Below are positions 48,156-58,501 of a stretch of 64,000 nucleotides of DNA, in pieces; the first letter of the stretch is position 1; every line of letters begins with the position of its first letter. The stretch lies in the NCBI RefSeq assembly GCF_004365575.1, contig NZ_SOBG01000001.1, positions 186,001 to 250,000 of the forward strand, in the 5' to 3' direction. A program made the translations under genes and the position numbers. A model generated the notes under the pieces. It worked only from the letters and a program-made list of their open reading frames with translations, did no database searches and had not been told where the DNA came from. Origin of the DNA: Hypnocyclicus thermotrophus. Its GTDB lineage: Bacteria; Fusobacteriota; Fusobacteriia; Fusobacteriales; Fusobacteriaceae.

Positions 48156-48692
48156 TTATAATTTATTATACTTCATTTTAAGAGTTTTTTCAAAATCATT
48201 TAAATATTTTTTTGCACCACTACTTTGAGAAGATTTCCACTTAGTAATAAAATCTAATAAATCATTTACTTCTCTTTTAGCTATATTTTTGTTTTTTCCT
48301 GTTTTTATCGCTTTATCAGCAAGAGTAATTGTTTTTTTATATCTTTCAACCATTGACTTTTGATTTATAGAGGCACCGCCTAAACCATCAATTGTTTCTA
48401 ATTTTAGAATTATTTTATTAAGATTATTTATCATCTTTTTAGTTTTTTCAGTAGCATGACCTGATTTGTTTTTATACGAATTAACTATATTAATAAAGTT
48501 TTCAATATTATCATAAATCTCTTCTTTGACAAAAAAATCATTCTTTTTAATAGCTAATTTAGCAGTTTTAACTAAATTATTATAAACTTTAATTGTTTGA
48601 TGTTCATTTAAAGAAGCTCCTCCTAGTCCATCAATATTAGCAAAAGTAATACTAGATAATATTAATAATAAAATTATTATCTTTTTTTTCAT
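48156..48692 (-). CDS. Exported protein with two IDGLGGAS repeats
   Basis: 178 residues from the ATG at 48692, which follows AAGGAG at normal spacing. Signal peptide ends ITFA. The mature protein is an internal duplication of about 80 residues: each half starts IDGLGGAS(L/I)N, followed by a Lys-rich helix (VYNNLVKTAKLAIKK; RYKKTITLADKAIKT). Residual similarity through the repeats is clear by eye. Location would be periplasm or surface. No family recognised. Monocistronic. Confidence 0.7.
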   Translation of the reverse strand: MKKKIIILLLILSSITFANIDGLGGASLNEHQTIKVYNNLVKTAKLAIKKNDFFVKEEIYDNIENFINIVNSYKNKSGHATEKTKKMINNLNKIILKLETIDGLGGASINQKSMVERYKKTITLADKAIKTGKNKNIAKREVNDLLDFITKWKSSQSSGAKKYLNDFEKTLKMKYNKL

Positions 48693-48875
48693 GTTATTCA
48701 CTCCTTTTTAAAATTTTTACATTTAAATCATACCATAAAAATATTAAAATTTCTATTTTTTTATCAATATTATAAAGAATTGAAAATAATAATTTTTTAT
48801 GTTAGGATTACAATATAAAATAGAATAAAAGGAATTGTTAGTCTGAATAGAAAAATTTACATTTATGGAGGAAAG

Positions 48876-50117
48876 ATGAATAGAAAATATATAGGTATAC
48901 ATCTTAAAGATAAAAAACAATTAACAGAAAATAAAAAAATAGAAAATTTTATTCCAAAAAGAGTTAAAATCTCTTTAAAACAGCATATAGGAACAAAAGC
49001 TTTTCCTATTGTTAAAGAAGGAGAAGAGATATTATGTGGACAGGTAATAGCGATAGAAAATTTTTCTCCTAACATACATTCTTCTATTTCAGGAAAAATA
49101 GAAAAAATTACTGAAGGTTTTATTGAAATAAAAAATGATTATGAAGAAAATAAAGTTGAAAATAAAAAAATCAAAATTGACACAATAAATAAATTTATAA
49201 ATTTATTAAAAGAATATGGAATAGTAGGAATGGGGGGAGCGATGTTTCCTACCTATAAAAAATTTAATATTCCAAATGGGAAAAAAATAGAAAATCTTGT
49301 AATAAATGCTGCAGAATGTGAACCATATTTAAATGCAGATAATAGAGTAATAATAGAAAAATATAATTCGATTATTAAGATACTGGAATTTATAAAAAAG
49401 TTATTTAATATAAAACATATAATAATAGGAATAGAAAAAAACAGACATGAAGCCATAAAAATTTTAGAAAATTCAAATAAAAAAAAGTTATATAAAATAA
49501 AAAAATTAAAAACAATTTATCCGCAAGGAGCAGAAAAGCAACTTATTCAAAGTATATTTAATAAAGAGATAAAAACACTTCCTATTGATGAAAATATTGT
49601 TGTACTTAATATTTCTACTTGTTATGCAATTTATAATGCGATTTTTAATAATAAACCTCTTACTAAAAGAGTTGTTACAATTAGTGGAGAAGCTATAAAA
49701 GAACCTAAAAATTTACTTGTACCAATAGGAACAGATATAAAGGAGTTGCTTGAATATTGTAAAATTAATGAAAGTAAAGTTTATAAAAAATTTTTAGGCG
49801 GACCGATGATGGGAGTAGAAATAGATAAAAACTCTACGATTATTAAAGGGACAAATGGTGTAATTGCTATATCTAAAAAAGAAGCAAATATATATCCAGA
49901 AAAAGAGTGTATATCATGTGGGAGATGCGTAGATGTTTGTCCAATGAATCTTATTCCTTTAAAATATGTTGAATATTATAGAAGAAATCAGTTAGGAAAA
50001 ATGAATGAGTATGAATTAAATAAATGTATAAAATGTGGATGTTGTCAATATATTTGTCCTGTAAATCAACCACTTATGAAAGCTATTTGGACGGGAGTAA
50101 ATTATAAAAATAATTAA
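48876..50117 (+). CDS. rnfC: Rnf complex subunit RnfC
   Basis: 413 residues, membrane-associated NADH-binding Fe-S subunit. FMN/NADH-site motifs GMGGAMFPTYKKF (118-130), NAAECEPYLNADNR (144-157) and YPQGAEKQLI (215-224) are intact. Two [4Fe-4S] motifs follow: C345-x2-C348-x2-C351-x3-C355 and C384-x2-C387-x2-C390-x3-C394. GGAGG precedes the ATG. First gene of a cluster C-DG-E?-A?; the next starts nine bases later. Relatives with longer C-terminal repeats exist; this is the short form. Confidence 0.93.
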   Translation: MNRKYIGIHLKDKKQLTENKKIENFIPKRVKISLKQHIGTKAFPIVKEGEEILCGQVIAIENFSPNIHSSISGKIEKITEGFIEIKNDYEENKVENKKIKIDTINKFINLLKEYGIVGMGGAMFPTYKKFNIPNGKKIENLVINAAECEPYLNADNRVIIEKYNSIIKILEFIKKLFNIKHIIIGIEKNRHEAIKILENSNKKKLYKIKKLKTIYPQGAEKQLIQSIFNKEIKTLPIDENIVVLNISTCYAIYNAIFNNKPLTKRVVTISGEAIKEPKNLLVPIGTDIKELLEYCKINESKVYKKFLGGPMMGVEIDKNSTIIKGTNGVIAISKKEANIYPEKECISCGRCVDVCPMNLIPLKYVEYYRRNQLGKMNEYELNKCIKCGCCQYICPVNQPLMKAIWTGVNYKNN

Positions 50118-50126
50118 GGGGGAACA

Positions 50127-51641
50127 ATGAAAAATAATATAAAATCAATTGCTCCATTTATTCGTACAAATTATACAATGGAATCAACAATGTACGATGT
50201 AGTTATTGCACTTTTACCAGTGTTAACAGCAGCTATTTATATCTATGGAGTTAAAGTTATATATATATTACTAATCTCAATTATTACGTCTTTATTTACA
50301 GAATTTTTAATTACAAAAAGTTTTAAACTTAAAAATCAAGTATTTGATGGAAGTAGTATAGTTACAGCTATGTTATTTTGTTTTACTTTACCTATAAGTA
50401 TTCCATATCATGTGGTTATTTATGGAAGTGTATTTTCAATATTTATAGGGAAAATGATATTTGGAGGCGTAGGTAATAATCCTTTTAATCCAGCCCTTTT
50501 AGGTAGATTATATATTATGATATCTTATCCACAATATAGTTATAATTATATTGATACTACAGTAGGTGCTTCTATTATTCCACAATTGAAATATATAGGC
50601 AGTGAAACAATATTTACATTTTTTAATGGTAAATTAGGTTTTTATAAAGATATTTTAATAGGAAGTAGTAAAAGAATTACATCTATTGGAGAAGTATCAA
50701 TTTTAGCAATAATATTAGGAATGATTTATTTGAAATATAAAGGGCATATTAAGTTAAGAACTCCTATATCAATTTTAGGAACGTTAGGAATTTTATATGT
50801 TATTTCAGGAAGAGATATTATGTATTTATTTCTTGGCGGAGTAATATTTGCAAGTGTATATATGGCTACTGATATGGTATCTTCACCATATACTCATAAT
50901 GGACTTATTATATATGGAATTGTTATAGGTTTATTTGTATATGTTTTTAGAGATTTTACATCAAATCCAGAAGGGATTACTTTTGCAATATTATTAGCTA
51001 ATATTTTAGTTCCAACAATAAATAAACATACTTTATCTAGAAGTTTTGGAGGAGAAAAAAACATGAAAAAGATTAAAACTATTTTTTTAATTATAATAGT
51101 CGTAATATCATCTGTTATTATAATTAATAAAACTGATAATATGATAGAAAAAATTAAAATAAAAAAAGAAAATCGTTTAAAACAAAAATTTATTAAAGAA
51201 ATTTATGGTGAAAATGCTAAAACTTCTGATAAAATAGAGATAAAAGGAGATTATTCATTTGTTCCAATAGAATTGGAAAATCAAATAGTTGGATACATAA
51301 CTATTTTTGAAAGTAAGGGCTATAGTGAAAATATGATTAAATTTTTATTAGCCTTGGATATAGAAGGAAGAATAAAAAGATTAGAAGTACTTTCTCAAAA
51401 TGAAACAGAAGGCTTAGGATCATATGTAGCTAGTAAAAAATGGAAAAATTTATGGATAAACAGAGATTCTAGTTATATTTTTAATAAAAAAGTGGATGCA
51501 ATGACAGGAGCAACCTTTACATATTTAAATTCTTATAAAACTATTATAAAAGTACTTGAAAGTTATGATGAATTAATAGGAAAAAATTCTTTAGAAATGG
51601 AGGATGTAGATTTTTTAGATTTAGAACCGATAGATTTTTAA
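50127..51641 (+). CDS. RnfD-RnfG fusion protein
   Basis: 504 residues. Residues 1-312 are RnfD: multiple membrane segments and the landmarks VFDGSSIVTAMLFCFTLP and NPFNPALLGRLYIM. From residue 313 RnfG begins in the same frame with its own membrane anchor (MKKIKTIFLIIIVVIS) and an external domain ending with flavinylation site D457-A-M-T-G-A-T463. The RnfD flavin site is unusual (D143-TTVGA-S149; Ser instead of Thr). GGAGGAG and ATG (51063) sit in frame at the junction, so separate RnfG could also be made. Both domains normally carry covalent FMN on the outer face. Confidence 0.85.
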   Translation: MKNNIKSIAPFIRTNYTMESTMYDVVIALLPVLTAAIYIYGVKVIYILLISIITSLFTEFLITKSFKLKNQVFDGSSIVTAMLFCFTLPISIPYHVVIYGSVFSIFIGKMIFGGVGNNPFNPALLGRLYIMISYPQYSYNYIDTTVGASIIPQLKYIGSETIFTFFNGKLGFYKDILIGSSKRITSIGEVSILAIILGMIYLKYKGHIKLRTPISILGTLGILYVISGRDIMYLFLGGVIFASVYMATDMVSSPYTHNGLIIYGIVIGLFVYVFRDFTSNPEGITFAILLANILVPTINKHTLSRSFGGEKNMKKIKTIFLIIIVVISSVIIINKTDNMIEKIKIKKENRLKQKFIKEIYGENAKTSDKIEIKGDYSFVPIELENQIVGYITIFESKGYSENMIKFLLALDIEGRIKRLEVLSQNETEGLGSYVASKKWKNLWINRDSSYIFNKKVDAMTGATFTYLNSYKTIIKVLESYDELIGKNSLEMEDVDFLDLEPIDF

Positions 51642-51671
51642 AAGTTTTAAGATGAAAAAGGAGGAAATGAT

Positions 51672-52154
51672 TTGGATACAATATTTATTTATCCGATAGC
51701 TGTTCTTGCAGTTGGAACTGTAAATAGTTTTGCAGCTATCCTTAGTTTATTTTTATTTTTAATAGTGTTTATATATAGTTATTTTATAAAAAAATATATT
51801 ACAAAAAGTTATATATTTATAGCAGTATCTATATTGATTAGTTTTATTTATCTTTTTTTAGATTATATGAATTTTAGTTGGTATATAGATGCAAAATATA
51901 TGGCAATATTATATTTTACAGTTATTTTAGCTTTGGAATATATAAATAAATTAGAGATAAAATATTTTATAAAAAATATATTTTTATTTTTATTTTTAGG
52001 AATTATAAGAGAATTTTTTTCATACGGTAAAATTTTTAATAAAACAATTTTAACAAAATTTGAGGGTTCACTAGTTTTAACTTACAGTGCAGGAGGATTA
52101 TTTTTACTTGTATTTATTTTTATATTTATGAATTCAAAAGGTGATAGTTTATGA
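51672..52154 (+). CDS. Diverged RnfE-position membrane protein, no cysteines
   Basis: 160 residues, about five to six hydrophobic segments, TTG start seven bases after GGAGG. Position after rnfG and the segment GIIREFFSYG recall RnfE (RE-x-LG/GSG), but it is shorter than the usual 200-230 residues and contains no cysteine; RnfE normally has conserved cysteines that help hold the membrane [2Fe-2S] cluster. It overlaps the next gene by four bases (ATGA). Identification as RnfE rests mainly on gene order. Confidence 0.6.
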   Translation: MDTIFIYPIAVLAVGTVNSFAAILSLFLFLIVFIYSYFIKKYITKSYIFIAVSILISFIYLFLDYMNFSWYIDAKYMAILYFTVILALEYINKLEIKYFIKNIFLFLFLGIIREFFSYGKIFNKTILTKFEGSLVLTYSAGGLFLLVFIFIFMNSKGDSL

Positions 52155-52663
52155 TAGTTTTAACGATAAAATTATTTTTAATAGGACTTTTACTTAATAA
52201 CTTTATATTTAAATATTTTGTGGGGATAGAAATATTTTCTAAAATAAAAAATATAAAAGAATTCTTAAAAATTTTTTTTATAAATATATTACTCGCAAAT
52301 GTTGTTAGCTATGGGATAGTAAAGTTATTTAAGATTAACTCTTTTGCTATAAATATATTAGTAATAAGTTTAATAGCTACAATGGTGTATGAAATTTTAT
52401 TTAAAAATAAGAGTGAATATAAAAATATTATTCTACTTTACACAATATTTTTATATTTAACTATAAAAGAGTATACTTTTTTAGCACTTATAATATATGC
52501 TATTTTGAATACATTTTTTATAGGAGTTTCACTTTATGTAATACAAAATTTATATGATTATATTGATTATAAATCAAAATTAATAAAACCAGAGCTTATA
52601 TATACCCTGGTTATTAGTTTAATATCTATGATATTTTTTGGTTTTACTGGTTTTCATTCTTAG
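52151..52663 (+). CDS. Diverged RnfA-position membrane protein, no cysteines
   Basis: 170 residues, six hydrophobic segments. The start LFLIGLLLNNFIFKYFVGIE recalls RnfA (NN-FVLS-x-FLGICPF), with the cysteine position occupied by Glu; the end FFGFTGFHS recalls the RnfA C-terminus. There is no cysteine in the chain. It overlaps the upstream gene by four bases, so it is translationally coupled. No rnfB follows: the next gene is convergent and overlaps this one by 20 bases. Confidence 0.6.
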   Translation: MIVLTIKLFLIGLLLNNFIFKYFVGIEIFSKIKNIKEFLKIFFINILLANVVSYGIVKLFKINSFAINILVISLIATMVYEILFKNKSEYKNIILLYTIFLYLTIKEYTFLALIIYAILNTFFIGVSLYVIQNLYDYIDYKSKLIKPELIYTLVISLISMIFFGFTGFHS

Positions 52664-53333
52664 TTTTTAAGTTAAAAGATGTATTTTTAAAATTTTTGGA
52701 ATAAATATTATTGGCTTCTTCTCCTACTATACTAATTGATTTATACGCTAAAAACCTTAATAATGAAAGTATAGTTGTTTTTCTTAAAATTCTAAATGTC
52801 CAGTACCTAGGATTTGCTATATTTAAAGTCATCCAAGTTTTTTGCAATTTATTAATTAATTTATGTTTATTAGCTTTTTTTATTAACGGAATTTCTAAAA
52901 ACTTATTTTTACTATCATTCAAGTATAATATTTGAGAAATTCTAACTTTTTTTAATAATTTAAATGTAGGAGTATCTAATAATTTTATTAATTTTTCTGA
53001 AATATGAATATTAAGATATAAAAATTCTTCTAAAGTAAGTTCATATAAGTGATATTGTGAAGAGGGAAAATACTCTTTTGAAATTTTATTTATAAGTTCA
53101 AATATATTATCTTTAAAATAAAATAAATTTTGTTTTAAATTAAAATTTTTATTAAATATCATATTTTTTTTAGCGTCTTTAATTATTTTGTTTATTTTAT
53201 CATCATTAACGTTTACTCTATCATATATTTCCACTTTTTCTTTATTTTTATAAAAAACATTTAAAACAATAAAAAAAATAGTTATAATTAGAAAAGTAGT
53301 AAGTATTCCAGCAAAAAATCCTATAAAAAACAT
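52644..53333 (-). CDS. Hypothetical membrane-anchored protein
   Basis: 229 residues. One N-terminal membrane segment (2-27), then a charged linker and a helical domain with a conserved-looking segment (LYELTLEEFLYLNIHISEKL, then TPTFKLLKKVRISQILYL) and a final helix pair (RILRKTTILSLLRFLAYKS). GAGGTG precedes the ATG. It converges on the Rnf-like cluster and overlaps its last gene by 20 bases. Family not recognised. Confidence 0.65.
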   Translation of the reverse strand: MFFIGFFAGILTTFLIITIFFIVLNVFYKNKEKVEIYDRVNVNDDKINKIIKDAKKNMIFNKNFNLKQNLFYFKDNIFELINKISKEYFPSSQYHLYELTLEEFLYLNIHISEKLIKLLDTPTFKLLKKVRISQILYLNDSKNKFLEIPLIKKANKHKLINKLQKTWMTLNIANPRYWTFRILRKTTILSLLRFLAYKSISIVGEEANNIYSKNFKNTSFNLKTKNENQ

Positions 53334-57823: not shown

Positions 57824-58327
57824 ATGAGGCAGAAATTATTAAAGAAAAAGAATCATCAGGAGTGGAGTTGGGTATTAATTTTTGCATTTTTTGCATTAGG
57901 AATAGTTGACTATCATTTTGGATTGCTAGGGTTAGCTTGTATGACAATTCCGTTATTTCATGCTTTTAAAGGACATGGAAAGATTCATTGTTCACACTAT
58001 TGTCCAAGAGGATCATTTTTAGGAAAATTCTTAGGAGAATTCTCATTAAACAATAATACACCAAAATTTATGAGAAAAAAATGGTTTAAAAATATGATAC
58101 TATTTATTATGATTGGTATGCTTAGTTTTTCTATGTATCATTCAGGCGGAAATCCTAAAAAAATTGGATTTGCAATATTTAGATTTATGTTAGCATCGTC
58201 AATAATAAGTGTATTATTAGGTTTAATGTTTAAGCCAAGAAGTTGGTGTCAAGTTTGTCCAATGGGATATAGTACAGGATTAATAAATGAATTAAAATTA
58301 AAAAAATCAAATAAAAAAGTGGCATAG
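57824..58327 (+). CDS. Membrane Fe-S protein of the NapH/4Fe-4S-binding type
   Basis: 167 residues with three or four hydrophobic segments. Cysteine motifs CSHYCPRGSF (about 65-75) and CQVCPMGYST (about 145-155) resemble the cytoplasmic CxxxCPxG motifs of NapH/NosR-type membrane redox proteins. It probably passes electrons between a cytoplasmic ferredoxin and a membrane partner. AGGAGGT precedes the ATG. A two-cluster ferredoxin gene starts nine bases after its stop. Confidence 0.75.
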   Translation: MRQKLLKKKNHQEWSWVLIFAFFALGIVDYHFGLLGLACMTIPLFHAFKGHGKIHCSHYCPRGSFLGKFLGEFSLNNNTPKFMRKKWFKNMILFIMIGMLSFSMYHSGGNPKKIGFAIFRFMLASSIISVLLGLMFKPRSWCQVCPMGYSTGLINELKLKKSNKKVA

Positions 58328-58336
58328 GAGGTAAAT

Positions 58337-58501
58337 ATGTATATAATAGATGAACATACATGTATTGAATGTGGATTTTGTCAAAAAATATGCCCAAAAG
58401 AAGCTATTGAAAAAACAGAAATAGCTTATAAAATAACTGGAAAATGCGTTAGTTGTGGTTTATGCGTAAAAAAATGTCCGGTAGATGCAATATCAAAATA
58501 A
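58337..58501 (+). CDS. 2[4Fe-4S] ferredoxin
   Basis: 54 residues, usual clostridial-type size. C9-x2-C12-x2-C15-x3-C19-P and C37-x2-C40-x2-C43-x3-C47-P. AGGAGGT precedes the ATG. Co-transcribed with the membrane Fe-S protein, so likely its electron partner. Confidence 0.93.
   Translation: MYIIDEHTCIECGFCQKICPKEAIEKTEIAYKITGKCVSCGLCVKKCPVDAISK

Follow-up and report, generated by a model that had tools for sequence, protein, structure and literature searches.

A reduced Rnf locus of Hypnocyclicus thermotrophus, with a fused RnfD-RnfG and cysteine-free RnfE and RnfA homologues, as a probable one-way outlet for NADH electrons

The Rnf complex (RnfABCDGE, ferredoxin:NAD+ oxidoreductase) ordinarily takes electrons from ferredoxin through RnfB, the [2Fe-2S] cluster of RnfA and RnfE, the RnfG flavin outside the membrane, the RnfD flavins and RnfC to NAD. 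Its structures give a U-shaped path in which the RnfC cofactors are aligned to RnfD and via RnfD to RnfG, with no direct transfer between RnfC and RnfB (PMC11889175; PMC12174285), whose clusters lie >30 Å apart in cryo-electron microscopy (PMC11889175). In the NQR/RNF-like one-way systems, an NqrB/RnfD limb with a flavin mononucleotide (FMN)-binding domain is proposed to carry electrons outward from NAD(P)H; the RnfD-like domain is fused to an NqrF-type PF00175 domain, and the systems occur chiefly in Actinobacteria and the Candidate Phyla Radiation (PMC8238504; PMC10979944). Here we describe a reduced rnf locus of Hypnocyclicus thermotrophus, found in a 64,000-nucleotide stretch of its genome (the window; genome G000, contig C1:186001-250000). 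It lacks rnfB and ends in cysteine-free homologues of RnfE and RnfA, here E' and A'. From its sequence, the encoded half-Rnf is probably a one-directional electron path that starts at NADH, runs via RnfC and RnfD and ends at flavins on the outer side of the membrane. The features are as follows:

48876-50117, plus strand: rnfC of the reduced lineage, 413 aa, with NADH/FMN domain, SLBB domain and two [4Fe-4S] sites (NCBIfam rnfC TIGR01945, 411 bits)
50127-51641, plus strand: in-frame fusion rnfD::rnfG, 504 aa, with PF03116 (272 bits) at 7-308 and PF04205 at 403-466
51063-51641, plus strand: possible internal start of a free RnfG, GGAGGAG-N8-ATG inside rnfD::rnfG
51672-52154, plus strand: E', cysteine-free RnfE homologue by profile comparisons, 160 aa, TTG start
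52151-52663, plus strand: A', cysteine-free RnfA homologue by profile comparisons, 170 aa
48156-48701, minus strand: putative periplasmic flavin carrier, divergent to rnfC, with signal peptide and two DGLGGAS units
52644-53333, minus strand: convergent gene after A', from the open reading frame list

The frames of all four genes (rnfC, rnfD::rnfG, E' and A') are intact and have ribosome sites, and the E' and A' genes overlap by 4 bases. An original prediction for this region had described an rnfC with an NADH/FMN site and eight cluster cysteines, an rnfD-rnfG fusion in one frame, two tightly coupled cysteine-free membrane proteins followed by a convergent gene, and no rnfB, and the analysis confirmed this layout throughout; the prediction did not include the divergent exported protein at 48156-48701 or the complete Rnf and NQR located elsewhere in the genome. 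No rnfB was found within the locus, and the genome's only RnfB-type FeS domain belongs to another, complete rnf operon.

Every cofactor residue of the C-D-G limb that could be mapped is retained. RnfC matches the Nuo51 FMN/NADH domain at residues 112-253 and the solved RnfC structure 7zc6_C with E 1e-101, and all aligned canonical and reduced RnfC share its cluster cysteines 345, 348, 351, 355, 384, 387, 390 and 394. In the RnfD part, alignment to 9eri_D and the family alignment A1 show N121 and D249 to be the equivalents of N123 and D249 of Acetobacterium woodii RnfD, which function in riboflavin binding (PMC11889175). The predicted FMN acceptors are Ser149 in DTTVGAS for RnfD and Thr463 in DAMTGAT for RnfG, the latter in the FMN_bind domain fused to RnfD. 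Thus RnfC with a Nuo51-like FMN/NADH domain and two [4Fe-4S] sites, RnfD with flavin sites (the riboflavin residues, and Ser for Thr at the acceptor) and RnfG with a covalent FMN motif are all present as in canonical Rnf, RnfG in fused form.

None of the 80 Rnf loci gathered from other bacteria contains a D-G fusion. The original rnfG start is retained in frame within rnfD::rnfG (GGAGGAGAAAAAAACATG, ATG at about 51063, with GGAGGAG upstream), and the other fusion lineages that have E'/A' likewise show an ATG in frame behind purine-rich sequence, while it is gone in those lacking E'/A'. It is possible that a free RnfG is produced from this internal start besides the fusion.

Neither E' nor A' matched a Pfam or NCBIfam model, and neither contains a cysteine. 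Profile comparisons identify them as highly diverged RnfE and RnfA. The A3 profile, made from A' and seven relatives, had as its four best matches in the whole PDB RnfA of A. woodii (9eri_A, E 1.7e-9), RnfA of Clostridium tetanomorphum (7zc6_A, 1e-6), NqrE and RnfA of Azotobacter vinelandii. With hhalign, A' matched 21 RnfA/NqrE at E 2e-11 and gave no match to RnfE, and its profile recovers RnfA and NqrE genes in 61 whole genomes. For E', the sole PDB-wide match of its profile (A2) at E up to 10 was RnfE 7zc6_E (E 0.037). Comparison of E' with a single RnfE sequence by hhalign was weak; rerun with 21 sequences, it gave E 1.6e-4 against RnfE/NqrD versus 0.53 against RnfA/NqrE, and the majority of the non-self matches of the E' profile in the 61 genomes fell on RnfE genes. 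By these comparisons the homology of E' to RnfE is sound, though weaker than that of A' to RnfA; the structure predicted for E' from one sequence was poor (predicted local distance difference test score, pLDDT, 59). The assignment of the two proteins to the RnfE and RnfA positions is thereby upheld, and descent from an unrelated family was not borne out.

The four cysteines that hold the shared cluster, two in RnfE and two in RnfA, occur in 98-99 of the 99 canonical RnfE/NqrD and RnfA/NqrE, among them loci of many phyla, versus none of the four in E'/A'. The homologues are thus there, while the cysteine-bound [2Fe-2S] is lost. A metal site of another kind in E'/A' was rejected, as the start Met is the only His, Cys or Met that is invariant in the family alignments. 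As the original prediction proposed, a complex whose RnfE/RnfA-derived pair lacks these cysteines cannot use the standard route from ferredoxin to NAD. Cluster-free E'/A' would probably serve as a scaffold for D and G.

We classify the half-Rnf as working like the one-way NQR/RNF-like systems and as related to Rnf by descent. It falls outside canonical Rnf, since RnfB and the cysteine-bound [2Fe-2S] of A/E, both defining features, were looked for and are missing. It resembles canonical Rnf in the cofactor residues of RnfC, RnfD and RnfG, in the order C-D-G-E-A and in having homologous E and A, but differs in the absence of RnfB, the D-G fusion, the four lost cysteines and a separate RnfC lineage, and its relatives have also shed E/A or G. 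With the NQR/RNF-like systems it shares, by sequence, a single transmembrane electron limb and an FMN_bind domain. However, PF00175 was not found in DG, which therefore is no PF03116-PF00175 fusion; the input is a true RnfC (FMN, two [4Fe-4S]), D and G are fused, and remnants of E/A are kept. Na+-NQR has homologous B, C, D and E subunits, whereas the half-Rnf has no NqrF and its RnfC retains the redox cofactors lost by NqrA; the cell's own NQR is separate (contig C2, L054). We found no description of an RnfC-based one-way form in the open-access literature, and such forms escape surveys because those papers define Rnf by RnfB (PMC8238504; PMC10979944).

Because RnfB and the A/E cluster are removed, one complete limb remains, NADH-RnfC-RnfD-RnfG. 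In it, NADH would reduce the FMN of RnfC, and electrons would then pass through the two [4Fe-4S] clusters and via the riboflavin and FMN of RnfD to the FMN of the fused RnfG domain. The outward direction and the final acceptor we infer: the last handover would be to small exported flavin-carrying proteins, such as the product of 48156-48701. The best reading of the locus is thus a reduced NADH-to-external-flavin device, as had been suggested at the outset, though there as a pump. The other suggestion, that electrons are delivered by an Fe-S membrane protein/ferredoxin pair at 57824-58501, was rejected; the pair lies 5 kb from rnf, behind unrelated genes, and no link was seen. Its first member is a NapH-like membrane protein with four cysteines and its second a 2[4Fe-4S] ferredoxin of 54 aa; the two apparently form a pair of their own, and sugar-phosphate pathway genes lie between them and rnf.

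The candidate carrier encoded at 48156-48701 has a signal peptide and then two units, DGLGGASLN and DGLGGASIN, each with a predicted three-helix domain; its AlphaFold2 model consists of helices with a mean pLDDT of 70. The genome contains three DGxGGA[ST]-coding sites in total, two of which are inside this gene. Relatives of the product are small lipoproteins. In G033, G014 and G025, genomes having C-DG-E'-A', the sequence DAQAGASLNR stands right after the lipobox, and the relative in G004 has DGYGGASLNR. At the C-termini of DG fusions stand two or three DGxGGA[ST] motifs (G033, G014, G025, G036, G031 and G023) or a single DGEAGA[ST] (G018 and G006). The DGxGGA[ST] form fits a flavinylation site because the canonical RnfD of the same cell has DGSAGAT. 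The genome encodes one ApbE, on contig C9. We infer from the motifs that the 48156-48701 product and the DGxGGA[ST] tails carry covalent flavin. Flavinylation motifs on the disordered tails of FMN_red and Flavodoxin_4 proteins (PMC10979944) are similar in that a tail or insertion bears an [S/T]GA[S/T]-like motif, but here the bearers are a small helical lipoprotein-like family and the C-terminal tails of DG, with up to three putative motifs. A conserved DG(C/I/V)GGAT site, roughly one per genome, also occurs in nearly all Fusobacteriota searched (e.g., G000:C2:276958), in an apparently unrelated housekeeping protein.

A more specific version of the export model can be advanced only tentatively: E'/A' would be cofactor-free scaffolds, C-D-G a self-standing NADH-driven exporter feeding a new minimal family of flavin lipoproteins, and RnfD alone may move ions. 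It is unlikely that the complex goes beyond plain export and is a reduced pump, with Na+ or H+ still pumped via RnfD during transfer from NADH to the outer flavin. According to a review (PMC12174285), ions take a path through RnfD/NqrB in some models, and the RnfD core is well conserved. However, work on A. woodii locates Na+ at the RnfA/E cluster (PMC11889175), which is lost here, and the free-energy gap between NADH and flavin is small. The same limb might also run in reverse, from external reduced flavins or other donors through DG and RnfC to NADH, perhaps aided by the membrane potential. In Rnf, electrons can travel the C-D limb either way (PMC11889175), and sequence does not reveal direction. 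No external donor oxidase was seen near the locus, however. Since NADH is more strongly reducing than bound flavins typically are, export would be downhill, which makes reversal improbable.

The reduced forms recur within Fusobacteriota, in line with the suggestion of an Rnf subtype. Cysteine-free A' was found in 7 of 98 genomes, in three genera and eight copies. The neighborhood survey of rnfD-rnfG fusions that had been proposed for this locus gave C-DG-E'-A' in these three genera and C-DG without E'/A' in genera g12 and g9 (L042, L046, L060 and L031). The C-DG operons of g12 (L042 3221-8384, L046 and L060) have small secreted FMN_bind proteins upstream and, downstream, a NuoE-like thioredoxin-type [2Fe-2S] protein (PF01257) that might offer electrons a further way in. 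Of the 22 genomes of family f4, which we take to be Leptotrichiaceae, 14 carry C-D alone, and 13 of these 14 lack PF02508, the RnfB FeS domain and the FMN_bind domain anywhere in the genome. ApbE accompanies rnfC in this family (14 of 14 rnfC-positive genomes versus 1 of 8 rnfC-negative ones; hypergeometric p about 5e-5, relatedness ignored), and apbE adjoins rnfC in five of the C-D-only genomes. Also encoded beside apbE-rnfC-rnfD is a small protein, exported and bearing ERATSSK-like repeats (L044 3160-3651; L041 9034-9465), which may carry the flavin where the FMN_bind domain is absent.

The original prediction had named as evidence against itself an rnfB elsewhere in the genome with matching phylogeny, together with normal rnfA/rnfE. 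Contig C5 (L053) does encode all of C-D-G-E-A-B in canonical form, RnfB and normal RnfA/E among them, so that this counter-evidence holds in part. In a tree of 47 RnfC proteins, however, canonical Fusobacteriota RnfC group with other phyla, and all reduced forms lie across a branch with 99/99 support, together with a divergent RnfC from the canonical operon of G054; branching order inside the reduced side is unsure because of long branches. By this tree, reduced RnfC is a separate Fusobacteriota lineage. A second reduced locus, C-D-E'-A', is located on contig C6 at about 69500-73000 (L052), with an orthologue, L055, in a sister species. Both adjoin genes resembling rplU-ysxB-rpmA-obg, and their RnfD, although without either FMN acceptor motif, has ENAGAT at its end. 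With a canonical Rnf complete in the genome, C-DG might provide alternative subunits that pair with C5-encoded RnfA, RnfE and RnfB, so that the full ferredoxin path persists. This arrangement is as doubtful as reversal: the locus encodes its own E'/A', its RnfC falls in a separate clade, and the lineage is present in 13 Leptotrichiaceae genomes without any RnfA, RnfE or RnfB.

For all four genes in G033, G014 and G025, the ratio of nonsynonymous to synonymous substitution rates (dN/dS) is 0.05-0.18 at dS 0.27-0.59; with values of 0.11-0.18 over the same dS range, E'/A' are under purifying selection in these close relatives and so are not dying genes. A decaying, functionless Rnf copy, with cysteine loss and fusion as pseudogene steps, would fit the strong divergence and shortening of E'/A', their absence from related lineages and the more degraded look of the copy on C6 (RnfD FMN motifs gone; A' dN/dS 0.53), but is very hard to reconcile with intact frames and ribosome sites, these low ratios, recurrence in several genera and the retention of all RnfC cysteines.

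Some observations weigh against one-way export to outer flavins. The RnfD acceptor position holds Ser149 instead of Thr, so that its acceptor role is putative, and in Leptotrichiaceae RnfD lacks the FMN acceptor residue and no RnfG is present. In one C-D genome (G053, L045 3602-4584), apbE is split by a stop codon, as a pseudogene or by sequencing error, with rnfC and rnfD intact. The DGLGGAS protein is absent from the sister species, which is also without this rnf locus; the tie of this protein to rnf therefore rests on adjacency, motif and relatives.

Together, the forms make up a loss series, CDGEAB, C-DG-E'-A', C-DG and C-D. The ion route in Rnf and NQR is disputed between RnfA/E and RnfD/NqrB (PMC11889175; PMC12174285), and a natural complex without the A/E cluster but with a selected C-D-G limb makes both views testable without crippling mutations. 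For the organisms themselves, the locus suggests a route by which fermenting fusobacteria may discharge NADH electrons extracellularly.

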